Source: Pseudomonadota bacterium (GTDB taxonomy: Bacteria > Myxococcota > UBA9042 > PHBI01). Taken from it: a DNA stretch of 11,639 nt. The stretch's first letter is position 1, and the number at the start of each line of letters is the position of its first letter. The notes under the pieces were generated by a model. The model did not search any database. It saw only the letters and a program-made list of their open reading frames with translations, and had not been told where the DNA came from. The stretch spans positions 1 through 11,639 of the forward strand of contig SXIE01000026.1 of assembly GCA_005772945.1 (NCBI GenBank), given 5' to 3'. A program made the translations under genes and the position numbers. This document shows positions 1 to 11,639 of this stretch, one piece after another.

Positions 1-205
1 CTCTCTCTCTCTTGTTTGCTTTTGCTCTTGCTCTCGCTCTCGCTCTCCTGCTCTCGCTCTCGCTCTCGCTCTCGTTCTTGCTCTCGCTCTCGCTCTCGCC
101 CTCGCTCTCGCCCTCGCTCTCCCTCTCGCCCTCGCCCTCGCCCTCGAACTCGCTCTCGCTCCCGACCTCGCCCTCCGCCTCGATCTCGAAACCGCCCTCG
201 CTCCA
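1..205. repeat. Degenerate CTCTCG/CTCGCC hexamer repeat
   Basis: The left edge is a low-complexity tract built on a six-base unit, CTCTCG near the start and drifting to CTCGCC, then decaying to about position 205. The + strand has no adenine at all from 1 to 146, an extreme strand asymmetry. Because the unit is two codons long, unit gain or loss would not shift a reading frame. All three forward frames are open from the left edge to at least 402, simply because stop codons cannot form without A, so open frames here are not evidence of coding. It could be a simple-sequence tract in an intergenic region, or the low-complexity tail of a gene entering from the left; the window cannot decide. Confidence 0.85.
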
Positions 206-380
206 CGCCTCGAACCCCGCACCCGGTCCGGGCCCGCGCCCAACCCTCGCCGGATCCCCGCACCCGCCGGCCCTCCCCGCCAGCGCGCCCATCCACCCCC
301 CGGCCCTCGCACGCCCCCGCATCGATCGAATCCCCTCCGCCCAGCAACTCACGCGCAAGGCTTGCACGCGCGCCCGCATC
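206..380. other. C-rich leader with no recognised gene
   Basis: Between the hexamer repeat and the first gene is a C-rich stretch with proline-rich conceptual translations in every forward frame and no recognisable domain. I see no convincing -35/-10 pair, hairpin terminator, riboswitch or RNA gene in it. If the operon has its own promoter it probably lies here or in the repeat. There is no clear Shine-Dalgarno sequence directly before the first gene; an AAGG at 357-360 is about 20 bases upstream, too far to be useful. Confidence 0.5.
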
Positions 381-803
381 ATGGAACACCCTGCCCATAT
401 GAATCCTGACGCGCCTCTCGCGCTGAGCGGCGACCCCATCTTCCGCGTCGTCGGCGACGAAGTCTTCGTGCTCGCTGGCCAAGGGCATGTACACTGGCTG
501 AAGAACCCGACCGCGCGCCTCATCTGGGACGCCCTGGCCGCTCACCCCCCCAAGGGCGTCACCCCCAGCGCGCTCGCGGCCCGCGTCGTCGCCGAGTTCG
601 AGGTCGATGACGCCCGCGCCCTGGCCGATGTCAACGCCTTTCTCGTCGCGCTCCTCGAGCGCGGCCTCGTGGCCCCTCGGGAAGTTCAGAATGGCCGTCC
701 CGCGCCCGATTCGCCGCCGCCCATCGCGACGACCGCTTCCAGAGCCGTCGCGCCCCCCTCGCCCGATGGCGACCTCATTGACTCGGACCCCGGTCAGACA
801 TAG
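381..803 (+). CDS. PqqD-family peptide-recognition protein (RRE type)
   Basis: A 140-residue protein whose residues ~12-97 match the PqqD fold: a beta hairpin (FRVVGDEVFVLAG), the family hallmark region HVHWLKNPTARLIWDAL at about 36-52, then helices ending in a VNAFLVALLERGLV segment at about 84-97. PqqD proteins and the related RiPP recognition elements bind leader peptides and deliver them to modifying enzymes, so the likely partner is the precursor at 8872 and the radical SAM enzyme at 9985. After residue ~98 a Pro/Ser/Ala-rich tail looks disordered. The start at 381 was chosen because the domain begins soon after; ATG 399 is an equal alternative (134 residues). The frame stays open to the left edge, but that extension is only repeat-derived low-complexity Leu/Ser/Pro sequence. 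The next gene starts 39 bases downstream, suggesting one transcript. Confidence 0.85.
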   Translation: MEHPAHMNPDAPLALSGDPIFRVVGDEVFVLAGQGHVHWLKNPTARLIWDALAAHPPKGVTPSALAARVVAEFEVDDARALADVNAFLVALLERGLVAPREVQNGRPAPDSPPPIATTASRAVAPPSPDGDLIDSDPGQT

Positions 804-832
804 GCTTTTGGCCTCTGTGCGACGGTTCGGAT

Positions 833-837
833 AAGGA
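833..837 (+). promoter_or_regulatory. Ribosome binding site of the giant lipoprotein
   Basis: AAGGA lies five bases before ATG 843. It fixes the lipoprotein start, in agreement with the signal peptide beginning at that codon. The 39-base gap after the PqqD gene shows no hairpin terminator. Confidence 0.7.
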
Positions 838-842
838 ACAGC

Positions 843-908
843 ATGAAACCCAACGCGCGCCTGTCACTCGCCGTTTGCGTCGCCGCTTCGATCGGCCTCG
901 TCGCGTGC
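843..908 (+). other. Lipoprotein signal peptide (lipobox LVAC)
   Basis: Residues 1-22 of the giant protein: basic start (MKPNAR), hydrophobic stretch through residue 21, then L19-V20-A21-C22, a canonical signal peptidase II site. Cys22 would be the lipidated N-terminus; residue +2 is Glu. Under the E. coli rule Glu at +2 is not a strong inner-membrane retention signal, so outer-membrane sorting is plausible but rules differ between phyla. Confidence 0.9.
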
Positions 909-3900
909 GAAGGCTCCGAGCTGGTGCGGTCCATCGACAAGAGCGCGACCCACGAGGTCGTCGACGGTACCGACGGCGACGGTGGCGAGGTCGTCGGCTC
1001 CGGGCTCGACTTCTGGTTCCTCACGGCCAACGGGATCAAGGGTGCGGAGGTCGACGAGGTCGCGCTCGCCATCGCCGACGAGATCCTCGACTACCGTCCG
1101 CGGCCCGATTTCCAGGTGAACATCAAGGTCGCCGCTCGCACCGCGCAACCAGGCAGCCAGGCGCGCCTCTTCGTCGACGACACCGCGGTCGCCGTGGTCG
1201 AGCTCCTCGAACAGGACGGCGTCTTCACCGCGACGTTCGCCGCCGTCACGTTGCCCATGCGCACCGCCGGCGTGCCCGTGCGGGTCGAGACCGTCGACAC
1301 CACCGGCGCACCACTCGTCCGCGAGAAGTCGGTCACGGTCGGCTACACGGGCTGCACCGTCGAGGCCGCCATCGTCGAGAACGCACTGCAATGCGCCGTG
1401 ACGAGCTACGATCCGGTCAGCGGGCTGACGGTCGGCGTCGATGTCACCTTGGCCGACGGCCACTGCGACCTCGCGGGCCTGCAGGTCACGTTCGGCGCTG
1501 CCACGACCGAGGTTGGGCCGATCGCATTCGGCGATGCCGGCGTGGCCCACTTCGACGTCGTGCTGGCACCCGGCGCCGGAGCCGAGCCACCAGCGCTGAG
1601 CGGCGAGCTGCGCGTCACGGCCATCGCTACGGTCGCCGCCGATCCGGTCACGGGCGGCGCCATCGATCTGATCAGCACGGTCGACGCGGACGTGCCGACC
1701 GTCGAGCTCGTCGCGCCGTCCGAGGGCAACGCCACGATCACGCTCGACAACGATCTGGGCGGCGATCCGAGTGACGGGCTGCAGTTCGCGGTCGCGTTCT
1801 CGTCCAACGTGGCGGAGCCCGCGCGCGCCGTCCTCACGCTGGATGGTGTCGAAGTCGGGGCGATCGACATCGCGCCGCAGGACGCCCTGACCTTCACGTT
1901 TCCGGCCGTGACCCTCACCCAGAACGGGCCGGTCGATTTCGCGGTGACCGTGACCGACGCGTGCGGGAACGTGGGCTCCGCGACCGCCACGGTGTTGGTC
2001 CTCTCAGCTGCGGGTCAGATCGGCATCGTGGTTCCGACCGATGCCTCCGTGCTTCTCGCGCGCGATGACGACAACGTCGCGACCGCGGGCGTCTTCGACG
2101 GCACGTTCGATGTCCTCACGACGGGCGCGCAGGTCGGGGCGACGCTCGGAATCTGGTGCGCGCGGGCGTCCTCGGTCGATCCGGCCGACCTCGTGCAGGT
2201 CGGCGTGCGCACCATCGCCACCGGGGGCGTCGCGCCCAACGGTCGCTACCAGATCGAGGTGTCCATTGACACCGGGGCGCTCGGCCAACAGGTGCGTTGC
2301 GTGGCGTGCATCGACCTGCCCGCCTCGGCGGAGTCCGCGCCGATCGACCTGACGATCGCGCTGCCGGCGCCGACCATGCTCGTCACGGCGCCGCTGGATG
2401 GGACGTGCACGAACGTCACGGCGATCGATGTGGCGGGCACCGCCACCGGGCTCGACGGCGAACCGGTGCGGGTCGACCTCGGGACGGGCACCCCGACCGC
2501 GCTCGCGGCGGTCGCGGCCGGCGTGTGGAGCGGCACGGTCAACCTCGCCGACACCTCGCCCGACGGCAGCTACGCCCTCGGGTTCGACGCGACCGACGCG
2601 CTCGGTAACATCGTCAGCGACACCTCGGGGCCCCTCGGCGTCTCGGTCGTGCTCGATCGGAGCAAACCCGTCCTGGCGATCGTTGCGCCCGCGGCCGCGA
2701 TCGATGCGACCGTCACGCCCGACGAGAGCGACACCGAGGCTGGCTTCCAGACGACCGCGCGCGCGACCGTAACCGACGCGCACGTCGACGGCGCGTCGGC
2801 CTGCCTCGCCGTGAACGGGGGCGCTCCGACGTGCGTCGTCCTGGCCAGCGATGGCGCGGCCGCTTGGCCGCTCGTCACGCTCGAGGTCGGCCCGAACACG
2901 CTGACCTATACGGTCACGGACACCTGCGGCAACGCGGGTCCCGAGGTCACGCGCATCGTCACGCTCGAGCAGACGACGCCGATCGCCATCGTCACGCCGG
3001 CGGATGCGACCACGCTGCGCGCGGCCGACGACGGCGACCCGGCCACCGCGCGCGTCTTCGAGGGCGACGTGGTCGTCGACTCCGATGGGGCGGCGGTCGG
3101 CGCTGCGATCAAGGTCGCCTGCCGCACCAACGGGGCGGGGGCGCTGTTCGTCGAGGTTGGAGCCTTCACGGTCGCCACCGTGGCCGCCGACGGGCGCTAC
3201 ACCGTGCCCGTCGCCATCGACACGGCGAGCCTCGGCACCGCCGTCGTCTGCCAGGCGACCGTCGATCTGCCGTTCGCGGGTGTGTCCCTGCCGATCGGGC
3301 TGCGGATCGGACTCCCGGCGCCCACGATCGGCGTGACGTCGCCGGCGATCGGCGCGTGCGCCACGGCCGCCACGCTCGACGTCGCAGGTGTCGCGAGCGG
3401 TCTCGACGCGCAGAGCGTGGCGGGTGCCTTCGGCGCCGAGTCGGCCTCGGGCAGCGTCACGGCGGGCGCCTTCGCCTTCACGATCCCAGTCCCCAGCGGC
3501 GCCGACGGGCCGACGACGCTCAGCGTTTCGGGGGTCGATACCTTCGGCAACACGGCCGACGCGAGCGTCGCGCTGCTCGTCGATCGCACCGCCCCGACCC
3601 TCGTCTACGAGGGCCCGAGCTCGCCGGTCGATCCGGGCGTCACGCCCGACGCCGATCCGATCGCGCCCGGCTACCAGACGACGGTGTCGGCCACGCTGGT
3701 GGATCTCATCGCGCTCGGCGGCGAGGTCTGCCTGGCCGTCAACGGCGGCGGCCTGACCTGCGTGGAGATCGGCGATACGAGCGGGGCCGTCGCCTTTGCC
3801 GGCGTCACGCTCCAGCCCGGCGACAATACGCTCGCCTTCGCGATGACCGACGGCTGTGGCAACGCCGGTCTGGCAAGCACCGAGACCGTGGCGCTCGTCG

Positions 3901-6900
3901 CCTCCACGCCGACGGTTGCGGTCACGACGCCCGCGAGCGACCTCGTCACGACCGCGGCCACCCTCGATCTCACGGCGACCGTCAGCTTGAGCGCCGCGCC
4001 GCTGGCGGGCGCCACGGTCACGCTCAGCGCGAACGGCACGCCGCTCGCGCTCACGCCGACCGACCACGGTGACGGGACGTACACGTTCACCGCCGTCCCG
4101 CTCGCGCCGGGCGCGGCCACGGCGTTCGTCGCGTCGGCCACACCCGGCGGTGGCGGCGGCACCGGCGCCTCGAGTGCTCGCACCGTCACGCAGAAGAACG
4201 TCCTGCCCACAATCGTGATCACGGCGCCCGGGGGCGGTCCGGTCAACCTGGCGACACCCGCCTGTGCCGCTGGACAGGCCGATTGCGTCATGACGGTGGC
4301 CGCGACGACGACCAACGCCGAGGACGGCAGCGTGACCTCGCTCGCGGTCGATTGCGACGGTGCCGCGAGCTCGTATGCCGGGGTCGTCAGCGCCGCCGCG
4401 ACGTCCTTTGTCGGGGTCGTCCTGCCGGACGGCGCGACGTGCCTGCTCACCGGATCGGTCACGGATGCGGCCGCGCAGACCGCGCAGAGCGCCACGGTGA
4501 CGGTGGACGTCGATCGCACGGCGCCGGTCCTCGACGTCACGAGCCCGAGCGGACCGCTGCAGAATACGAGCGATCTCACGGCCGGCACGGCCGGGATCCA
4601 GGCGCCGCTTCTCGTCGATGTGGCAGGCGTCGAGGCCGGTCAGACGGTCGACGTGGTGCTGACCTGGACCGACGCGGGGGGGCCGCAGACCAAGGCGTAT
4701 TCCGCGGTGACCACCGGCAGCGACGGCGTCGTCGCCATGGAGGAATTCGCGGGCGCCGGTTGGATCACGTGGCCCGAGGGGCTCATCACCGTCACGGCGA
4801 GCGCCGAGGACGTCGCGGGCAACCCGGGCAGCGACGTTGTGAGCGTGCCTGTCTCGAGCACCGGGGACGTGCGCATCACGTCGCCGGTCGCGCTCGCGGA
4901 CGCGTGTGCCGGCACGTGTGCGACCGGCGTGTGCAACGCCGGCGCCTGCTGGCGCACCTGGGGTATCGCGGACTCGCGCCAGCTCGTGGCCGCCCCGGCC
5001 GGGATCACCACCACGAGCCAGAACATCCGGGTGTGCTCGGACGAGCCGTCGCTGGCGGCCACCGGCGCATCGGTCTGCGCCTCGACGCCGAGCGCGACCG
5101 GGCCCTACCGACAGGTGCTGATCGGCAATACGACCGGCGCGCTGACGGTCCTCGATGTGAGCGCCGTCCTGCCTGCGGGCTTCCAGCGCCTCGTCGTCGA
5201 GGTCATGCCGATTGCAGGGGGCGGATGGCTTTCGAGCCTCGGCACCGTCAACGCCGCCGAGCGCCTGCGCCGCGTCGCCGTGGACGTGAGCGCGCCCACG
5301 GTGAGCGGCCTCGGAAGCCCCTCGGACACCCTTGCGCCCATCGGCACGCTGAACGCGGCCGAGCAGGTTTCTCCCCCGCGCGTCTACCAGATTGCGTTCA
5401 CGCCGAGCGAGTCCGCGCGCGCCGAGGTGTTCGTGCAGGGCGTCTCGGTGCTGGTTCAGGACGTGGTCCCCGACCCGAGCCCGACGACGGTGCAGGTCAC
5501 GCTGCCCGAGGGAACGCCCCAAGTGTGGGTCGTGCTGACCGACGTCGTTGGCAACCGCTCGCCGGCGAGCCCCGCGACGGGCGCGGTGACGTACCAGCCG
5601 ACGGTCGACGTCACGCCTCCGACGCTGTCCTTCTCGCGCCCGAATGCGTCGCCGCTCCACGCGGGCGACAACCTCGACGTCATCCTGACCTCGAACGCCG
5701 AGGGGCGCACGGCCACCGTTCGTGACGCGGGTGTCGACGTCGCCTCGGCCGCGATCGCGAGCGGCGCGGCGACGTTCGCGGACGCGACCTTCCACATCCT
5801 CTCGGACGGGACGCACACGCTCACGGCGACCGTCAGCGATGCGGCCGGCAACGCGGCGACCGTCGCCACGACGCCAGCGTCCATCGTCGTCGACGCCGTC
5901 CCGCCCGTCGGCACGATCACCGATCCGGTCGAGCTCGACACCTTCACCGACGCCGACGACGCCGACCCGGCCTCGGGCTTCCAAGTGAGCGTGACGTTCA
6001 CGACCAGCGGCGCCGCGAGCTGGAAGCTGCTCACCGCCGACGGTTGCGACGCGACCTGGTCCGGGTGCGACGCGCCCGTTCAGCAATCGACCGGCGCTGT
6101 GACCAACCCCGGCGGCGCCGAGCCGGCGCAGCTCGTCACCGTCGACCTCGAGGCTGCGCTGACCTTCAAGAAGATCATCCTCGAGACGACCGACTCGGGC
6201 GGCAACACCGCGACCACCGACGTCGACGTCAGCTTCGCGGTCTCGGCGTGCGCGCTCGCGTTCACCAACCTCCCGGTCAGCGCCTGGTACAACATGTCCG
6301 CGTGTCCGGGGGGCACCCCCTGCGCCTCGACCAGCGTCGCGATCGACGTCCAGCTCACGGGCGCGTGCGCGCTCAGCGAGCTGCGCCTCCTCAACGGCGG
6401 CGCCACCGTGGGCACCATCCCGAATCCGGTCGGCACCGAGACCTTCCTCCTCACGGTCGCCGACGCGGCGCACCTGACCCTCGAGGCCAAGGGCTTCGCG
6501 GGCGCCAGCGAGGCGGCCTCGACCGGCGTGCGCGTCCGCGACGCCGACTTCACGCCGCCTTCCGTCCAGTTCGTGAGCCAGGTCGTCAACGGCTTCACGA
6601 CCACCGCCGAGGGCGCCAACACGACCTACAACGCCGCGACCGACCTCCTGCCGAGCACGGCCGGCATGCAGCTCCACGCGGCCGTGCGCGTCACAGACAC
6701 CAACGCCAATGGCGGCCGCATCGAGAGCATCTCCGCGGCGGGCACCTCCGGCACGACGGCGCTCTCGCCCTCCAACATCAGCCTGCCATCCTCGCTCGTC
6801 GGCGCCTCGCCGATCACCGAGAACCTCCTCGATCTGACGCTCGTCGACAACGACACCTATACGGTCACGGTGACGGGCTCGGATGCCGCCGGCAACACCG

Positions 6901-8840
6901 ACACCTCGTCGTACACGGCCAAAGTCGACGTGACGGCCCCGGCCGAAGTCCCCATCTCGTCGATCGCGATGCAGCAGCGGCGCCCCCGCGCGAACCAGTT
7001 CCGCTGGACCACCGTGGGTGACGACGGCAACACGAACGGGGCCGTCGCACGCTACGAGATCCGCTACTCGTTCCAACCCATCGACGCGTCGACCTGGGAT
7101 GCCGCCTGCCTCGGCAGCGGCGTCTGGGGCTCGAACGCGCTGCCCGCGCCGGTTCCGGCCGGCACCGTCCAGGGAAGCCTGGTGGGCGCCCCCGACACGC
7201 GCCCCATCACCGATCCGTGCAAGCTCGCCGTCTTCTTCGAGGCGAACGAGGCGCCGACTGAGGCCGCCATGTACTTCGCCATCCGCGCGGTCGACGACGC
7301 CGGGAACTGGTCGCCGCTCGGGAGCCAGAGCGTGCGCGCCGTCACGAACGCCGAGATCTGGATGCGCCTCACGCGCATCCGCTTCGACAACACCGGCGGC
7401 AGCCTCGGCATCGATCCGAACTTCTTGACGGTGCGCGGCGCCATCATCGGCGACATCAACGGCGACGCGCGCCCGGACTGGGCGGTCGGCTCGGCGAACG
7501 CGGGCGGGACGTGCGTCATGCTCGGCCACGCCTATCCGGTCGACGGCGAGACCATCAGCGCGCCGACCGGCACGAACCACACCTGCCTGACGAACGCCCA
7601 AGCCACGGCGCTGATCGCGAACGCCACCCAAGTCGGAACGACCGCCGAGCCGCTCGGCGACATCAACGGCGACACGCGCGCTGACTTCGCGATCACGGGC
7701 AAGGTCGCGTCCGGGTCGCCGCACGAGGGCTTCGCGCTCATCTACCTCGGCCAGGCGATGACCGGTGGCAACCCGAACGGCATGCCGAACCTGACCGCGC
7801 CGAACATCATCGTGCGCGGCATCGACGCGCTGAACGTTGCCTTCACCGGCGTGTGCGGCGCCGGCAACTTCAACGGCGCGGGCCCCGCCGACTTCGCAAT
7901 CGGCGAGCCTTTCTCCAATCGAATCAACGTCTTCCCGGGCGACGCCAGCTGGACGTCCGGCGGAACCAACCTCACCATCAACCTCGACGTCGCGGGCGCC
8001 GTGGCTGCCAATGGCGGCATGACCATCAACTTCACAGGTCCCGCGACGGCCGGCTTCGCTGCCCGTTGCGGCAATGCGGGCGACCTCCTGCCCGCCCCGG
8101 TCGACCTCAAGGACGACCTCCTCGTGAGCCAGACCGGCTCCGACAACGGCCGCGTGTTCGTCTTCCCGGGACGCACGTGGGTCGCCGGCGACACCTCGAC
8201 CGTGAGCCAGAACCCGTCCGGAACCCCCGAAGACCTGCGATCGCTTCGTCTGCGCCAGGAGAGCGACGGGCCGCAGGCCGGCTTCGGATCTGGCTTCCAG
8301 GGGCAGGCCGACTTCACGGGCGACGGGATGCCGGACGTGCTCGTCGTCATCCGCGGGCGCTCGTTCGACAACGCGGCGGGCGCGAACCACGACGGCAAGG
8401 CCATCCACATCTTCGATGGCGCCAAGCTCGCGGCCGGGGTGGGCGGAGACGTCCGCGTCGACATCGGCACGAACCCCAAGGTCGGCGAGAGCTGGACGGG
8501 GACCAATGGCTGGGTGCTGTACTCGAGCGTCTTCGGCGATATCCGCTCGGTGCGGGGCGTCGGCGACTTCAACCAGCAGAACTACGCCGGGCGGCCGACC
8601 GTGGACCTGGCCATCGCGAATATCGCGGGCGACACCGTCCAGATGCGCATGAACCACCCGCGCCCGGGCGTGAACGAGCTCGCGCAGTTCTCGATCATCG
8701 ACGGACTCTTCGACAACTTCTACAACGACGCCGCGAATGGCGTCGGAACGTGGATCGATGCGAGCGGGGACCTCACCGGCGACAGCCTTCCGGACTTCAT
8801 CGTGGGCAGCCAGAAGGGCGATGTCTTGATCATCCGCTGA
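843..8840 (+). CDS. Giant multi-Ig surface lipoprotein with C-terminal integrin-like propeller
   Basis: A 2665-residue exported protein. Residues 1-22 form a lipoprotein signal (Lys/Arg n-region, hydrophobic core, lipobox LVAC with Cys22), followed by a short acidic/Gly linker, so it should be lipid-anchored and probably surface exposed. Residues ~85-2030 are beta-rich Ig-like domains; the conserved D-x-x-G-N strand motif recurs at about 372, 585, 693, 899, 1003, 1323, 1567, 1666, 1784 and 2014. Paired cysteines in many domains suggest disulfides. Residues ~2032-2170 resemble Fn3 (FRWTTVGDD, YEIRYSF, YFAIRAVDDAGNWSP). Residues ~2180-2665 carry seven FG-GAP-like loops. Known proteins of this architecture are adhesins or surface structural proteins; binding partner is unknown. 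It has no catalytic motif that I recognise. It sits 39 bases after the PqqD gene and 31 bases before the precursor, so co-transcription is likely. Its inclusion in a peptide-modification operon is odd. Confidence 0.9.
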   Translation: MKPNARLSLAVCVAASIGLVACEGSELVRSIDKSATHEVVDGTDGDGGEVVGSGLDFWFLTANGIKGAEVDEVALAIADEILDYRPRPDFQVNIKVAARTAQPGSQARLFVDDTAVAVVELLEQDGVFTATFAAVTLPMRTAGVPVRVETVDTTGAPLVREKSVTVGYTGCTVEAAIVENALQCAVTSYDPVSGLTVGVDVTLADGHCDLAGLQVTFGAATTEVGPIAFGDAGVAHFDVVLAPGAGAEPPALSGELRVTAIATVAADPVTGGAIDLISTVDADVPTVELVAPSEGNATITLDNDLGGDPSDGLQFAVAFSSNVAEPARAVLTLDGVEVGAIDIAPQDALTFTFPAVTLTQNGPVDFAVTVTDACGNVGSATATVLVLSAAGQIGIVVPTDASVLLARDDDNVATAGVFDGTFDVLTTGAQVGATLGIWCARASSVDPADLVQVGVRTIATGGVAPNGRYQIEVSIDTGALGQQVRCVACIDLPASAESAPIDLTIALPAPTMLVTAPLDGTCTNVTAIDVAGTATGLDGEPVRVDLGTGTPTALAAVAAGVWSGTVNLADTSPDGSYALGFDATDALGNIVSDTSGPLGVSVVLDRSKPVLAIVAPAAAIDATVTPDESDTEAGFQTTARATVTDAHVDGASACLAVNGGAPTCVVLASDGAAAWPLVTLEVGPNTLTYTVTDTCGNAGPEVTRIVTLEQTTPIAIVTPADATTLRAADDGDPATARVFEGDVVVDSDGAAVGAAIKVACRTNGAGALFVEVGAFTVATVAADGRYTVPVAIDTASLGTAVVCQATVDLPFAGVSLPIGLRIGLPAPTIGVTSPAIGACATAATLDVAGVASGLDAQSVAGAFGAESASGSVTAGAFAFTIPVPSGADGPTTLSVSGVDTFGNTADASVALLVDRTAPTLVYEGPSSPVDPGVTPDADPIAPGYQTTVSATLVDLIALGGEVCLAVNGGGLTCVEIGDTSGAVAFAGVTLQPGDNTLAFAMTDGCGNAGLASTETVALVASTPTVAVTTPASDLVTTAATLDLTATVSLSAAPLAGATVTLSANGTPLALTPTDHGDGTYTFTAVPLAPGAATAFVASATPGGGGGTGASSARTVTQKNVLPTIVITAPGGGPVNLATPACAAGQADCVMTVAATTTNAEDGSVTSLAVDCDGAASSYAGVVSAAATSFVGVVLPDGATCLLTGSVTDAAAQTAQSATVTVDVDRTAPVLDVTSPSGPLQNTSDLTAGTAGIQAPLLVDVAGVEAGQTVDVVLTWTDAGGPQTKAYSAVTTGSDGVVAMEEFAGAGWITWPEGLITVTASAEDVAGNPGSDVVSVPVSSTGDVRITSPVALADACAGTCATGVCNAGACWRTWGIADSRQLVAAPAGITTTSQNIRVCSDEPSLAATGASVCASTPSATGPYRQVLIGNTTGALTVLDVSAVLPAGFQRLVVEVMPIAGGGWLSSLGTVNAAERLRRVAVDVSAPTVSGLGSPSDTLAPIGTLNAAEQVSPPRVYQIAFTPSESARAEVFVQGVSVLVQDVVPDPSPTTVQVTLPEGTPQVWVVLTDVVGNRSPASPATGAVTYQPTVDVTPPTLSFSRPNASPLHAGDNLDVILTSNAEGRTATVRDAGVDVASAAIASGAATFADATFHILSDGTHTLTATVSDAAGNAATVATTPASIVVDAVPPVGTITDPVELDTFTDADDADPASGFQVSVTFTTSGAASWKLLTADGCDATWSGCDAPVQQSTGAVTNPGGAEPAQLVTVDLEAALTFKKIILETTDSGGNTATTDVDVSFAVSACALAFTNLPVSAWYNMSACPGGTPCASTSVAIDVQLTGACALSELRLLNGGATVGTIPNPVGTETFLLTVADAAHLTLEAKGFAGASEAASTGVRVRDADFTPPSVQFVSQVVNGFTTTAEGANTTYNAATDLLPSTAGMQLHAAVRVTDTNANGGRIESISAAGTSGTTALSPSNISLPSSLVGASPITENLLDLTLVDNDTYTVTVTGSDAAGNTDTSSYTAKVDVTAPAEVPISSIAMQQRRPRANQFRWTTVGDDGNTNGAVARYEIRYSFQPIDASTWDAACLGSGVWGSNALPAPVPAGTVQGSLVGAPDTRPITDPCKLAVFFEANEAPTEAAMYFAIRAVDDAGNWSPLGSQSVRAVTNAEIWMRLTRIRFDNTGGSLGIDPNFLTVRGAIIGDINGDARPDWAVGSANAGGTCVMLGHAYPVDGETISAPTGTNHTCLTNAQATALIANATQVGTTAEPLGDINGDTRADFAITGKVASGSPHEGFALIYLGQAMTGGNPNGMPNLTAPNIIVRGIDALNVAFTGVCGAGNFNGAGPADFAIGEPFSNRINVFPGDASWTSGGTNLTINLDVAGAVAANGGMTINFTGPATAGFAARCGNAGDLLPAPVDLKDDLLVSQTGSDNGRVFVFPGRTWVAGDTSTVSQNPSGTPEDLRSLRLRQESDGPQAGFGSGFQGQADFTGDGMPDVLVVIRGRSFDNAAGANHDGKAIHIFDGAKLAAGVGGDVRVDIGTNPKVGESWTGTNGWVLYSSVFGDIRSVRGVGDFNQQNYAGRPTVDLAIANIAGDTVQMRMNHPRPGVNELAQFSIIDGLFDNFYNDAANGVGTWIDASGDLTGDSLPDFIVGSQKGDVLIIR
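2013..2969 (+). repeat. Large protein repeat, copy 1 (residues ~391-709)
   Basis: First copy of a ~310-320 residue composite repeat in the lipoprotein. It begins GQIGIVVPTDASVL, contains an NGRYQIEVSIDTG motif and a paired-Cys CVACIDLP segment, passes through two Ig-like domains and ends with a DTCGNAG motif. Landmarks recur in the same order in the next copy. The domain immediately before it (residues ~284-390, ending DACGNVG) resembles the last third of the unit. Confidence 0.75.
2970..3899 (+). repeat. Large protein repeat, copy 2 (residues ~710-1019)
   Basis: Second tandem copy. Landmarks shared with copy 1: TPIAIVTPADATTL at the start, DGRYTVPVAIDTASLG, CQATVDLP, LPAPTIGVTSP, DTFGN, CLAVNGGG...TCV, and DGCGNAG at the end. 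Copies are diverged at the residue level, so this is an old internal duplication and not a recent recombination product. Confidence 0.75.
4905..4949 (+). other. Cys-rich knot between Ig-like domains
   Basis: Within the lipoprotein, four cysteines occur in 15 residues (C1355, C1359, C1364, C1369) in the pattern C-x3-C-x4-C-x4-C, flanked by Gly/Ala. It resembles short disulfide-stapled EGF-like or Dickkopf-like inserts seen in secreted myxobacterial proteins. A metal site is possible but disulfides are more likely for an exported protein. Confidence 0.55.
7380..8837 (+). other. Seven-loop FG-GAP-like beta-propeller domain
   Basis: The last ~485 residues carry seven related loops at residues ~2204 (DINGDARPD), 2273 (DINGDTRAD), 2342 (NFNGAGPAD), 2414 (degenerate, DLLPAPVD), 2490 (DFTGDGMPD), 2575 (DFNQQNYAG, degenerate) and 2643 (DLTGDSLPD). 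Spacing is 68-85 residues, each loop followed by a hydrophobic strand such as DFAIGEP or DFIVGSQ. This is the arrangement of integrin-alpha type seven-bladed propellers, where Asp/Asn side chains of the loop bind calcium. Four loops keep the full Asp pattern. Confidence 0.8.
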
Positions 8841-8861
8841 TGCGGGGGCAACCTAGGACTT

Positions 8862-8866
8862 GGAGA
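8862..8866 (+). promoter_or_regulatory. Ribosome binding site of the precursor peptide
   Basis: GGAGA lies about five to six bases before ATG 8872 and is the best-placed Shine-Dalgarno sequence in the gap, favouring that start over ATG 8866 or TTG 8860. An AGGA at 8855-8858 could instead serve ATG 8866, which would add only two residues. The 31-base gap after the lipoprotein has no terminator-like hairpin, which supports read-through. Confidence 0.65.
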
Positions 8867-8871
8867 TGACC

Positions 8872-9063
8872 ATGAATCACCCTGTACTCGCTCGCGAAGA
8901 GCGCTTCGCGCTCGCCCGCGACGAATCGTCGATCGAGGCTGCGCGTGCGCCGCGCCGGCCCTATGCGGCGCCTCGCATCGAGAGCGGGGAGGCGTTCGAG
9001 CGGGTGCAGCTAGCGAGTGACTGCAACAGCGTCCTTCCCGGTGAATGCGACCCTGTGTGCTGA
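8872..9063 (+). CDS. Candidate RiPP precursor peptide with Cys-containing core
   Basis: A 63-residue peptide. The N-terminal ~45 residues are charged and Ala/Arg/Glu-rich, with no signal peptide, and include Y31-A-A-P34-R-I36 followed by GEAFERVQLAS. This Y-x-x-P-x-(I/L) then Glu/Phe pattern is of the kind found in leaders bound by PqqD-like recognition proteins, including lasso leaders. The last ~14 residues, DCNSVLPGECDPVC, form a likely core with Cys51, Cys59 and Cys63 (C-x7-C-x3-C), the final residue being Cys. Neighbouring genes (PqqD protein, radical SAM/SPASM, kinase-like, protease) support a ribosomally made, modified peptide. Thioether, disulfide or other crosslinks at the Cys residues are possible; the chemistry cannot be read from sequence. 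I do not recognise a named family. The 3' 47 bases are also read in another frame by the next gene. Confidence 0.75.
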   Translation: MNHPVLAREERFALARDESSIEAARAPRRPYAAPRIESGEAFERVQLASDCNSVLPGECDPVC

Positions 9064-9988
9064 CGACGGGCGCGCTGCGAGCCCGCCTTTCGAAGGGGCG
9101 GTCGCGGGCACGCGCCTTCAAGGTCTGCAGCTGACGCTGGACGTCGATGCGCGCTGGCACGCCGGCGTCCAGCAGCTCTTCGAGACGTTCCACCCGGGGC
9201 CGTCGATCGGCACCGCGCGCGCGACGGCGCACGCCGTCCTCGGCCGCACCGACCGACCTCGGCTCGCCGAGGCCCCCGATCGCCCCTTCTTCCGCGCGAC
9301 GGCGGGAGACTCCGTGCTGCGCGACCAGTCCCACGCCTGGGACGCCGAGCTTGGCCTCGGGCCGCGGCGCCTCGACGCCTCGTTCGCGCTCCGCGACGTT
9401 CCGCTGCTCCGCGACCACCCCTTCGAGCAGGCGTTCATGCGCGAGCTCGTCTCGAGCGCGCTCCGGGTGACGCTAGGCAGCGCCGCGCCACTGGCCGATG
9501 CGCTGCTCGTGCATGGGGCGGCGTTGGTCGAGCCCGCCAGCGGCATGGCGGTGCTCTTCCTCGGTCCGAGCGGCGCGGGCAAGACGACCATGGCGCGACG
9601 CCTGCCGGGCTGGCAGGTCCTGGCGGACGACACCGTGTGGCTCGCCCGCGGCGACGGCGGCTGGGTCGTCTCGGGAACCCCGCTGCGCGGCAAGGAGGGC
9701 AACCCGCGCTCGGGTACGCCCGTGGCCGTGAGCGCCGTCGCGACGCTCGTCCCGGCCGCGCCCGCGTTGAGCGTCACGCCTCTCACCGAGGCGGACGCGA
9801 TGCGCGAGCTGCTCGCCCGCATCTTCTGGTGCGTCGCGGATGCGCGCCTCGAAGCGCAGCTCGTCGACGTCGCGCACGCGGTCGTCGCCACGCTCCCGAG
9901 CGTTCGCCTCATGTCCTCCCTCGCGCACGACGTCGCGCCCGCGGCGCGTGAGCTGGCGTCCCTCGCGCGTCCTCGGGTGGCGCCATGA
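9017..9988 (+). CDS. HPr-kinase/PEPCK-like P-loop protein of the peptide cluster
   Basis: A 323-residue protein with an HPrK-like nucleotide-binding core in its C-terminal half: HGAALV at ~166, Walker A GPSGAGKTT at 183-191, LADDTVWL with D204/D205 (Walker B/catalytic-Asp region), and GTPLRGKEG at about 220-230. This resembles HPrK-type proteins encoded beside RiPP genes; one in the paeninodin lasso cluster phosphorylates a peptide serine. The core here contains Ser53, and Ser49 adjoins it, so peptide phosphorylation is possible but unproven; a regulatory or tailoring role is equally open. The N-terminal ~160 residues lack a motif I recognise. Start: GTG 9017 gives a 47-base overlap with the precursor; GTG 9041 is the only other nearby in-frame start and has no upstream Shine-Dalgarno. 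The end overlaps the next start in an ATGA, implying translational coupling. Confidence 0.8.
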   Translation: MTATASFPVNATLCADDGRAASPPFEGAVAGTRLQGLQLTLDVDARWHAGVQQLFETFHPGPSIGTARATAHAVLGRTDRPRLAEAPDRPFFRATAGDSVLRDQSHAWDAELGLGPRRLDASFALRDVPLLRDHPFEQAFMRELVSSALRVTLGSAAPLADALLVHGAALVEPASGMAVLFLGPSGAGKTTMARRLPGWQVLADDTVWLARGDGGWVVSGTPLRGKEGNPRSGTPVAVSAVATLVPAAPALSVTPLTEADAMRELLARIFWCVADARLEAQLVDVAHAVVATLPSVRLMSSLAHDVAPAARELASLARPRVAP

Positions 9989-11139
9989 TCGGCGGCCTCA
10001 ACACCGCGGTCCGCAAGGCCTATGCGCGCGCCGGCATGCTCTACGAGCTGCACTGCGATCTCCTCTACCAATGCGATCTCGACTGCGAGCACTGCTACCT
10101 CGACGACAAGGCCCGCCGCATCCTGCCAACCGAATTCTGGCGGGACGTCCTCTCGCAGGCCGCCACCCTCGGGGTCTTCTCGGTCCTCTTTTCGGGCGGC
10201 GAGATCTTCCTCCGCAAGGACCTCCTCGATCTCGTCGCCCACGCCCGCGCACTCGGGCTCTTCGTGCACCTCAAGTCGCACGGCGGGCACATCGACCGGG
10301 CCAAGGCCGACGCGCTCCAGGCGCTCGGCGTCTCGACCGTCTGGCTCAGCTACTACTCGACCGATCCCGCGATCCACGACGCCATCACGCGCAAATCCGG
10401 CAGCCATGCCAAGACGCGCGCAGCCCTCGGACACTTGTCGCAGGCGGGCCTCACGACCTTCGCCTCGGTCGGCGTCATGGCGCGCAACGAAGCGACCTGG
10501 CAGGACGCCGTCGCCGACGCGCGCGCCCTCGGCGCCCTCGCGAGCGTCGATGGCCACATGCGCGCGGCCCACAGCGGCGCCGATTTCCCGAAGCAATTGG
10601 CGGTCGATCTCGCCGGCCTCATCGCGATCGAGGACTCGGCGATCGACCCCAGCTTGCGCGGCGAGGTCGACTGCGATCCGCACCCGGAGCCCAAGCCCTG
10701 GGACGACAGCAAGAGCTGCGGCGCCGGCAACGTGATGCTCTACATCGGCCCCGAGGGCGACGTGATGCCGTGCGTCGCGTGGCCCATGCCGATCGGCAAC
10801 CTCGCGACCGGCGACCGCCTCGCCGACCTCTGGGCCGATAGCGCCCGCCTGGCCCAGATCCAAGCCTACCGGCGCAGCGATCGCGTCGTCTGCACCGCTT
10901 GCCCGGTGCGCGACGACTGCGACTTCTGCGCGGGCCAATCCTGGATCGAGACCGGCGATCCGTTGGCCGCCATCCAGAATGTGTGCCTCAAGACGCGCGC
11001 CAAGACCCTCGCCAAGGCCGCCGCCCTCGGCCTCCCGGAACCCCCGATGCCCGCCGGACTCACGGCCGATCCGGCCACGTCTCCGGCGGCGTTCCCAGGC
11101 GCCCGGCCTCGCTTCCCCATCCGCGTCGTGAATCGGTGA
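9985..11139 (+). CDS. Radical SAM/SPASM peptide-modifying enzyme
   Basis: A 384-residue enzyme. The radical SAM cluster motif is C30-x3-C34-x2-C37 (QCDLDCEHCYL), with the SAM-binding FSGGE at 69-73. A full seven-Cys SPASM domain follows: C245-x12-G258-x4-C263, then C303-x2-C306-x5-C312-x2-C315, and C334, enough for two auxiliary 4Fe-4S clusters. Extra cysteines C24 and C230 lie near the clusters. SPASM enzymes of this layout modify peptides or proteins (PqqE, anaerobic sulfatase maturases, thioether and cyclophane synthases). With a PqqD protein and a small Cys-containing peptide in the same operon, the precursor at 8872 is the natural substrate, probably via C-S, C-C or C-O bond formation. 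The start ATG 9985 overlaps the upstream stop by four bases and has GGGTGG four bases before it. The C-terminal ~40 residues are Pro/Ala-rich and probably flexible. Confidence 0.92.
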   Translation: MIGGLNTAVRKAYARAGMLYELHCDLLYQCDLDCEHCYLDDKARRILPTEFWRDVLSQAATLGVFSVLFSGGEIFLRKDLLDLVAHARALGLFVHLKSHGGHIDRAKADALQALGVSTVWLSYYSTDPAIHDAITRKSGSHAKTRAALGHLSQAGLTTFASVGVMARNEATWQDAVADARALGALASVDGHMRAAHSGADFPKQLAVDLAGLIAIEDSAIDPSLRGEVDCDPHPEPKPWDDSKSCGAGNVMLYIGPEGDVMPCVAWPMPIGNLATGDRLADLWADSARLAQIQAYRRSDRVVCTACPVRDDCDFCAGQSWIETGDPLAAIQNVCLKTRAKTLAKAAALGLPEPPMPAGLTADPATSPAAFPGARPRFPIRVVNR

Positions 11140-11573
11140 CCGAGCCCGATCCGCGATCGTCGGCCTTTCGCGACGCGGTCGCGGCGCAGCTTCGCGCTGG
11201 CCGCCCCGCGCGTCTGCGCGCCTCCGGTCAGAGCATGTGGCCCACCGTGCGCGACGGCGACGACGTCCTGATCGAGTCGCTCGCGCCCGCCTGTCCGCTT
11301 GCCGTCGGCGATGTCGTTCTCTACGAGAGCCCGCGCGGCCTGGTCCTCCATCGCATCATCGCGCTCGCCGCCGATCACCTGACGACCAAGGGCGACGCCG
11401 AGCCGCGCCCCGACCTGCGCATCCCGCGTGCGGCCATCCTCGGCCGCCTCGCGCGGCGCCCCGGCGACCCCTTGCGCGCTGCCCTGTCCGCGCACCTCGG
11501 CCCGCTCGGCGCCTACCTCGCGCGGCGCGCGCGCCGCCTGGAGGCCCTGCTTTTCCGGCGCGCCGCGGGTTAG
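11136..11573 (+). CDS. Soluble S26B (SipW)-type signal-peptidase-like protein
   Basis: A 145-residue protein with the motifs of S24/S26 peptidases: SGQSMWPT with predicted nucleophile Ser33, GDDVLI, GDVVLY at ~58-63, LVLHRII with His72, and TTKGDAEPRPD at 83-93. The HR...TKGD signature fits the SipW/eukaryotic/archaeal branch that uses a Ser-His dyad, not the bacterial LepB Ser-Lys dyad. It shows no convincing transmembrane segment, unlike true signal peptidases, so it may act in the cytoplasm, for example as leader peptidase for the RiPP. The C-terminal ~40 residues are Arg/Ala/Leu-rich and may form a basic amphipathic helix. The start is GTG 11136, overlapping the radical SAM stop in a GTGA; no Shine-Dalgarno is seen, so coupling is likely. 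The open frame extends upstream into the radical SAM gene, but that part is a shadow. Confidence 0.8.
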   Translation: MTEPDPRSSAFRDAVAAQLRAGRPARLRASGQSMWPTVRDGDDVLIESLAPACPLAVGDVVLYESPRGLVLHRIIALAADHLTTKGDAEPRPDLRIPRAAILGRLARRPGDPLRAALSAHLGPLGAYLARRARRLEALLFRRAAG

Positions 11574-11582
11574 CGTCCGCCC

Positions 11583-11639
11583 ATGCGGTTCGCGGACGTC
11601 CTCGGCCAAGTAGCTCCCAAAGCCACGCTCATCGAGGCC
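11583..11639 (+). CDS. holB: Start of probable DNA polymerase III delta' subunit (partial)
   Basis: Nineteen codons from ATG 11583 to the window edge. The start, MRFADVLGQVAPKATLIEA, matches the opening typical of delta' (HolB) proteins, F-x-D-V-L-G-Q-x-x-A-x-x-x-L, which precedes the AAA+ clamp-loader domain. Other clamp-loader-like AAA+ proteins (DnaX, RarA) begin with a similar V-x-G-Q motif, so the assignment is moderate. It begins nine bases after the protease stop, suggesting a shared transcript with the peptide module. No clear Shine-Dalgarno is visible. Confidence 0.55.
   Translation, partial: MRFADVLGQVAPKATLIEA

Follow-up and report, generated by a model that had tools for sequence, protein, structure and literature searches.

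A putative RiPP-type maturation cassette linked to a giant surface lipoprotein in Myxococcota

Conserved linkage of the lipoprotein and peptide genes

The window analysed here, a stretch of 11,639 nt from a member of the Myxococcota (GTDB: UBA9042; PHBI01) that comprises positions 1–11,639 of the forward strand of contig SXIE01000026.1 in assembly GCA_005772945.1, carries six open frames, all on the plus strand, which encode a PqqD-family protein, a giant lipoprotein, a small cysteine-bearing peptide, an HPrK-like protein, a radical SAM/SPASM enzyme and an S26-like protease (Table 1). This set is interpreted as a maturation cassette of the kind that makes ribosomally synthesized and post-translationally modified peptides (RiPPs), coupled to a giant surface lipoprotein with whose head the product would work, a reading to which we assign a probability of roughly 55%. 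It is highly probable that all six genes act together as a single functional unit. An earlier note on this DNA had given the genes, their coordinates and their spacing (gaps of 39 and 31 bases, then overlaps of 47, 4 and 4 bases), and all of these proved correct to the base. The six frames are not a chance assemblage, because the same gene order is found, at 45–59% identity, in the three nearest relatives detected and the set recurs widely across the phylum. Promoter and terminator scans of the window gave no signal above chance, so that it is the gene spacing that supports an operon structure; Rfam at gathering scores likewise gave no match in the window.

A scan of GTDB genomes identified the three nearest relative loci (L001–L003), all from metagenome-assembled genomes within one order of five genomes; the L001 organism is placed in Myxococcota by NCBI. 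The lipoprotein, peptide, HPrK-like, radical SAM and S26-like genes stand in the window's order in all three, and the PqqD gene is seen in L002, the sole contig of the three extending that far. Over the full alignment the radical SAM enzyme of the window is 44–64% identical to those of L001–L003, and the lipoproteins align over all available length.

The survey was extended to the 52 genomes of L001's class. A profile of the last 650 residues of the lipoprotein (threshold 1e-20) matched 43 genomes, each with exactly one copy, and a radical SAM profile (threshold 1e-40) matched 39; both were found in 37 genomes, the lipoprotein alone in six, the radical SAM enzyme alone in two and neither in seven. 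Cassette genes adjoin the lipoprotein gene in 42 of the 43 genomes, the contig of the remaining one (L134) ending inside that gene. Apart from L134, each of the lipoprotein-only genomes has PqqD, peptide, HPrK or the full set of cassette genes next to the lipoprotein, and one of these five neighbourhoods holds a radical SAM gene overlooked by the initial search. Taking as undecidable those places judged by inspection to meet a contig end, the peptide gene follows the lipoprotein gene at 41 of the 43 places (37 by profile and four by eye at the same spot, two undecidable), the HPrK-like gene is present at 39 (four undecidable) and the S26-like gene at 37 (six undecidable). The radical SAM gene lies on the lipoprotein's contig at 38 (five undecidable, in one of which it is at the start of another contig), and a PqqD gene lies upstream of the lipoprotein at 32 (eight undecidable, three not found). 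In a Mantel test the divergence of the cassette genes matches, a result that does not distinguish shared function from shared descent.

Across the phylum, a radical SAM search of 377 Myxococcota genomes, in which five candidates were scored per genome and at least one true case (G013) was missed, yielded at least 87 places in 85 genomes. Inspection of all 87 found a large FG-GAP lipoprotein at 64 (including G202, whose linkage was counted across two contigs), a C25 peptidase in its stead at two and neither at 21. The class contributes 37 of the places with the lipoprotein and both of those with the peptidase. Outside the class the lipoprotein is present at 27 of 48 places, 11 of which follow the window's order as far as their contigs reach (order A). 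The other 16 have a second arrangement (order B) in which HPrK and PqqD genes, either of them first, are followed by the radical SAM gene, a large FG-GAP protein and then the peptide; the S26-like gene, where called, is located 3' of the peptide or close to HPrK, and a few loci lack a PqqD or HPrK call. In 14 of these 16 the peptide gene comes immediately after that of the large protein, the contig of L150 ending inside that protein and no peptide being called in L156. In both orders the lipoprotein gene is thus 5' of the peptide gene. In a radical SAM tree built by a quick method from 87 rows, with the window and L131 included and L113 and L116 left out, order B forms one side of a branch with a support of 90, and lipoprotein presence requires seven changes if solitary genes are counted as lacking it. 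The earliest searches were seeded only by the window and L001–L003, and later profiles were rebuilt from loci found with those seeds, so the later searches are not independent evidence.

Because it persists across the phylum despite a change of gene order, the link between lipoprotein and peptide is old and has outlasted rearrangement; the usual fixed element is the lipoprotein gene adjoining the peptide gene. These neighbourhoods (42 of 43 class places, 64 of 87 phylum places) support the proposal of the earlier note to count the lipoprotein as part of a RiPP-type system, and a consistent lack of the lipoprotein or of the peptide from homologous clusters, which the note had set against its own proposal, was looked for and does not hold. 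As to the note's question whether all six gene types recur together, joint recurrence is usual in class and phylum, but 23 of the 87 places have no FG-GAP lipoprotein nearby, and there are five genomes whose radical SAM gene is separated from it. The lipoprotein is the usual, not the obligatory, partner of the maturation genes.

Table 1. The six cassette genes of the window.
Feature	Position	Strand	Basis or detail
PqqD-family protein (stand-alone RiPP recognition element)	381..803	+	Pfam PF05402 E 2e-10
Giant lipoprotein, 2665 aa	843..8840	+	lipobox, Ig-like repeats, C-terminal integrin-alpha-like FG-GAP beta-propeller
Precursor peptide, 63 aa, Cys-bearing	8872..9063	+	leader part with RRPYAAPRIESGEAFERVQLAS; presumed core DCNSVLPGECDPVC
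HPrK/PEPCK-fold P-loop kinase-like protein	9017..9988	+	predicted fold and Walker A
Radical SAM/SPASM enzyme	9985..11139	+	Pfam Radical_SAM and SPASM
S26B-like (Ser/His) protease, presumed leader peptidase	11136..11573	+	Pfam Peptidase_S26, Ser/His pair

The precursor peptide and its putative maturation enzymes

The small peptide is very probably a modified precursor. Its gene has the sequence GGAG six bases upstream of the ATG at 8872, with an alternative in-frame ATG at 8866. Among 60 peptides, for which candidates were chosen partly by YxxP and at one set of loci also by the presence of a cysteine, [YW]xxP occurs in 58, the other two having FxxP and YVKA, and all 60 carry at least one cysteine after the motif; 18 further peptides called by profile all have [YW]xxP and a later cysteine, giving totals of 76 of 78 and 78 of 78. 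In the 60 peptides, 3 of the 1566 residues up to the end of the motif are cysteine, versus 128 of the 1877 that come after it. The 78 peptides thus have the make-up of RiPP precursors, being short, with a conserved leader and a variable core. YxxP is a characterised recognition motif of RiPP recognition elements (RREs), those of the PqqD group binding W/Y/LxxP (PMC12710340, available text). The window, L001, L002 and the FERVQLAS-bearing database relatives conform to the pattern S[GD]C[ND]x(4-7)C[DES]xxC; L003 does not. Within the window's class set, 4 of 42 peptides have a C-terminal serine, versus 29 of 36 outside it (14 of 18 and 15 of 18), these 36 including the class's two C25-type peptides, which end in Pro. 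In a large database the peptide profile picks up 28 proteins with E values of 10 or less, and none of them carries a functional name. The profile found no match in the seven class genomes without a lipoprotein or radical SAM match, nor in the two C25 genomes, which shows little, given that the two C25-type peptides read by eye escaped it as well.

The recognition element of a RiPP system is represented by the PqqD-family protein, and the modifying enzyme by the radical SAM protein (Radical_SAM E 3e-14, SPASM E 1e-7), whose motifs are intact: all three cysteines of CxxxCxxC are kept in 65 of 65 sequences, and six SPASM cysteines are each kept in 63–64 of 65, with the last being Cys in 42 and His in 21. 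PADLOC matched this protein to two viperin models only, which is taken as superfamily likeness and not as viperin identity. The S26-like protease scores just below the Pfam cut-off (Peptidase_S26 E 4e-4; 20.8 of 22.9 bits), and its Ser and His, the pair that marks S26B, are each conserved in 58 of 58 sequences. Its top hydrophobic stretch of 19 residues scores 1.74 in the window, where it lies inside the S26 domain, and 0.93–0.95 in L002 and L003, so that no membrane anchor is expected; this suggests that the protein acts as a leader peptidase in the cytosol and not as a signal peptidase. The main text of PMC10885120, a paper about leader proteases, makes no mention of S26 or signal peptidase.

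By sequence, the likeness to HPrK is weak (Hpr_kinase_C E 0.018), and the curated cut-off for a functional HPrK is far from reached (15.0 of 240 bits). The predicted structure has the PEPCK/HPrK fold (predicted local distance difference test score 81.7) with a Walker A motif, the lysine of which is invariant in 58 of 58 sequences. The first 31 residues of the frame, which cover the 47-base overlap with the peptide gene, are of low confidence in the model; in L001–L003 the HPrK-like gene begins after the peptide stop, but in the window the next in-frame start beyond the peptide stop comes only at 9314. A kinase reaction is suggested by the fold and by the precedent of paeninodin, in which an HPrK homologue phosphorylates the C-terminal Ser (PMC8498205, available text). 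For the PqqD, kinase-like, radical SAM and S26-like proteins, every NCBIfam model among the matches listed stayed below its cut-off.

The lipoprotein head and the possible role of the peptide

The giant lipoprotein begins with a lipoprotein signal and lipobox (...IGLVAC followed by EGSE) and has Pfam matches to Big_13 (E 4e-14) and FG-GAP (E 3e-4; 21.3 bits, slightly below Pfam's 22.1), as well as to the NCBIfam domain model barrel_OmpL47 (43.5 of 40, over cut-off). Its C-terminal end is an integrin-alpha-type FG-GAP beta-propeller by predicted structure, an assignment also matched by sequence profile. A simple pattern detects a lipobox in the window's protein and 36 others among 46 complete lipoproteins, several of the misses having uncertain starts, and in 15 of the 16 order-B large proteins, L103, L118 and L122 being shared between both counts. 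At least 73 database relatives were used by score, name and length only; the closer ones, if named at all, are called 'hypothetical protein', 'FG-GAP repeat protein' or 'cysteine-rich repeat protein'.

These parts suggest a pathway in which the PqqD protein would bind the [YW]xxP leader of the 63-residue precursor, both partners being present; the radical SAM/SPASM enzyme would crosslink or otherwise modify the cysteine-bearing core, a thioether being the simplest product; the HPrK/PEPCK-fold protein may phosphorylate the core, perhaps at the C-terminal Ser in related clades; and the S26B-like protease would cut off the leader. The lipoprotein would be exported and lipid-anchored, as its lipobox indicates, with the Ig repeats as stalk and the propeller as head, domains recognised by sequence and model. 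In the last step, to which the conserved linkage points, the mature peptide would work with the lipoprotein, most likely bound by its head as a ligand or prosthetic group; the chances of this step are about even. RiPPs are known mostly as secreted antibiotics, signals or cofactors. More tentatively, a RiPP might here equip an adhesin or receptor on the producer's own surface, the modified peptide serving an integrin-like head as its genetically linked ligand or prosthetic group, in an arrangement widespread in Myxococcota whose sister cassettes would serve other large exported proteins such as the C25 peptidase. If so, RiPPs would gain a part in cell-surface structure or recognition, a lipoprotein family so far without a functional name would acquire a function, and a fresh, testable set of radical SAM substrates would be at hand.

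Several observations weigh against this reading. Conserved linkage implies joint function, not binding. A peptide was called at nine of the 21 places with neither lipoprotein nor C25 peptidase nearby, one of the nine being on a contig of 3.3 kb, so that the presence of the maturation core does not require the lipoprotein; a search beside the intact lipoprotein of G172 and G129 turned up no peptide; and in the two class genomes with the radical SAM enzyme alone, a C25 peptidase replaces the lipoprotein. The order-B lipoproteins are shorter (973–1672 residues), and their likeness to the others is known from FG-GAP repeats only. The use of YxxP in picking peptides means that the motif's frequency is not independent evidence, the number (1 to 4) and spacing of the cysteines differ between peptides, which makes a single fixed crosslink pattern unlikely, and the paeninodin parallel is not extendable to the class-set peptides, so few of which end in Ser. 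The window also contains no transporter gene.

The main rivals assign different roles to the peptide or to the lipoprotein. A predicted surface head of ligand-binding fold adjoining a small, probably modified peptide would also suit a secreted RiPP signal or bacteriocin for which the lipoprotein is the surface receptor or immunity factor, and peptide cores do differ between lineages. This is unlikely: the lack of a transporter gene in the window speaks against a signal or bacteriocin too, and the occurrence of the lipoprotein as one copy per genome in 43 of the 52 members of the class, with the matching gene divergence, fits a core cellular role better than a bacteriocin of patchy distribution, although a receptor could still fit. 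It is also conceivable, if decidedly unlikely, that the enzymes crosslink, phosphorylate or process the lipoprotein itself, with the small peptide as adaptor or carrier; in genomes whose radical SAM gene is at another site the lipoprotein still has PqqD upstream, and two genomes replace the lipoprotein with another large exported protein, but the cysteine after an RRE-type motif is common to all 78 small peptides. Synthesis of a redox cofactor or small molecule, comparable to pyrroloquinoline quinone (PQQ) or mycofactocin and bound by the lipoprotein, would agree with a broad, mostly single-copy distribution and with the similarity of the radical SAM enzyme to PqqE and mycofactocin models, which stays below their cut-offs. 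The residue pairs concerned are Tyr/Glu in PQQ and Val-Tyr in mycofactocin; the common feature of the cores here is Cys, with no conserved pair of either sort seen in them, and such a product is highly improbable. That a peptide-modification operon happens to include an unrelated surface protein, as the quarter or so of radical-SAM places without a lipoprotein nearby might hint, is barely credible given that linkage to the adjoining peptide is kept widely over the phylum through gene-order change.

Variant loci, known systems and flanking features

The 21 places with neither lipoprotein nor C25 peptidase are of several kinds. Two (L120, L141) are PqqD-peptide-HPrK-radical SAM-S26 sets, and since the lipoprotein profile has weak, repeat-like matches only in their genomes, these seem truly to lack it. 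Beside the L120 cassette, at 4405–8022, lies a gene for a lipoprotein-like protein of 1205 aa with several CxxCH motifs (by eye). Six sets (L148, L149, L151, L154, L155, L159) mostly have the order S26-HPrK-PqqD-radical SAM-peptide, with the peptide called in five (none in L148) and HPrK and S26 uncalled in L159; they form a separate lineage, one starred branch of the tree, with peptides of the EPLEAVA..C type and no giant lipoprotein called nearby. The others are L162, L163 and L102, the short contigs L113 and L116, and eight radical SAM genes that stand alone or nearly so. Five of the eight solitary genes are in genomes with the lipoprotein elsewhere (G251, G283, G129, G172, G205), and PqqD lies within 0.8 kb upstream of that lipoprotein in the four not cut by a contig end, the contigs of G205 being short. 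In G283 the peptide and HPrK genes follow the lipoprotein, with the radical SAM gene apart. At L178 and L179, PqqD and lipoprotein genes are together, the radical SAM gene is elsewhere in the genome and no peptide was found beside the lipoprotein. The C25 variant cassette (L098 4833–10638, L099 3356–9845) consists of HPrK, PqqD, radical SAM, a WETP-type peptide (IQTLAYQCSSGPAPVSGS), S26 and a C25 peptidase of 1034–1058 aa that has a C-terminal hydrophobic stretch and an RRRR tail.

No description of this gene set was found in the open-licence full-text literature, and comparison was made with several partly similar systems. SynChlorMet (ScmC, ScmD, ScmE, ScmF) shares HPrK-like, PqqD-like and radical SAM/SPASM proteins, and ScmC, which is HPrK-like, is the best NCBIfam match of the window's HPrK-like protein. 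It differs in having, by model names, two radical SAM enzymes versus one in the window, and the scores are far below cut-off (ScmC 20.7/125, ScmD 15.1/100, ScmF 58/400 bits). The GeoRSP system (radical SAM protein, 122.1 of 400 bits) and the HPr-rel-A system (PqqD-type chaperone 20.1/35, HprK-related kinase A 15.2/200 bits) also fail their cut-offs. TIGR04133 ('rSAM_w_lipo') is, going by its name, a radical SAM/SPASM family associated with a lipoprotein; the related enzyme of L120 scores 45.9 of 425 bits.

Paeninodin-type lasso peptides with an HPrK-type kinase have in common with the cassette a YxxP leader, a stand-alone RRE and an HPrK homologue (PMC8498205, PMC12710340, available text), and in related clades only a C-terminal Ser as well. 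Unlike them, the cassette has a radical SAM enzyme in place of the B2 and C enzymes, a cysteine-bearing core and a giant lipoprotein; in the window, Pfam identifies neither the transglutaminase-like B2 nor the asparagine-synthetase-like C enzyme among the six proteins. Sactipeptides and ranthipeptides share the radical SAM/SPASM enzyme and cysteine-bearing core, and SkfB is among the nearest solved sequences to the enzyme. The cassette differs from theirs in its separate PqqD, kinase-like protein, S26 protease and lipoprotein, and a thioether is putative here. The lipoprotein head resembles VCBS/FG-GAP beta-propellers, including integrin alpha (PMC8023676, available text), in predicted fold and sequence-profile match. 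Unlike integrin alpha, the window's protein is bacterial, lipid-anchored (by its lipobox), equipped with an Ig stalk and tied to a peptide-maturation cassette, and no integrin beta subunit is present in the window.

Among ten downstream neighbours scanned in second-tier loci, no transporter or further enzyme was detected, the matches being TPR and LysM proteins, with one unmatched. A pair of envelope-type genes (a TPR protein of the YfiO/CpoB sort and a LysM protein) lies 3' of the cassette in L064, L065, L066, L070, L072 and L003 (4805–7293). In the window, a degenerate array of the hexamer GCTCTC (about 27 copies, 81% matches) occupies positions 24–188, upstream of the PqqD gene, and an open frame of 2217 aa on the minus strand (2004–8657) is antisense to the lipoprotein gene, probably as a by-product of high G+C codon use. 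At 11584–11639 the window holds the start of a frame that resembles, by eye, a DNA polymerase III delta-prime gene, and such a gene (Pfam DNA_pol3_delta2) follows the cassette in L001 and L002.

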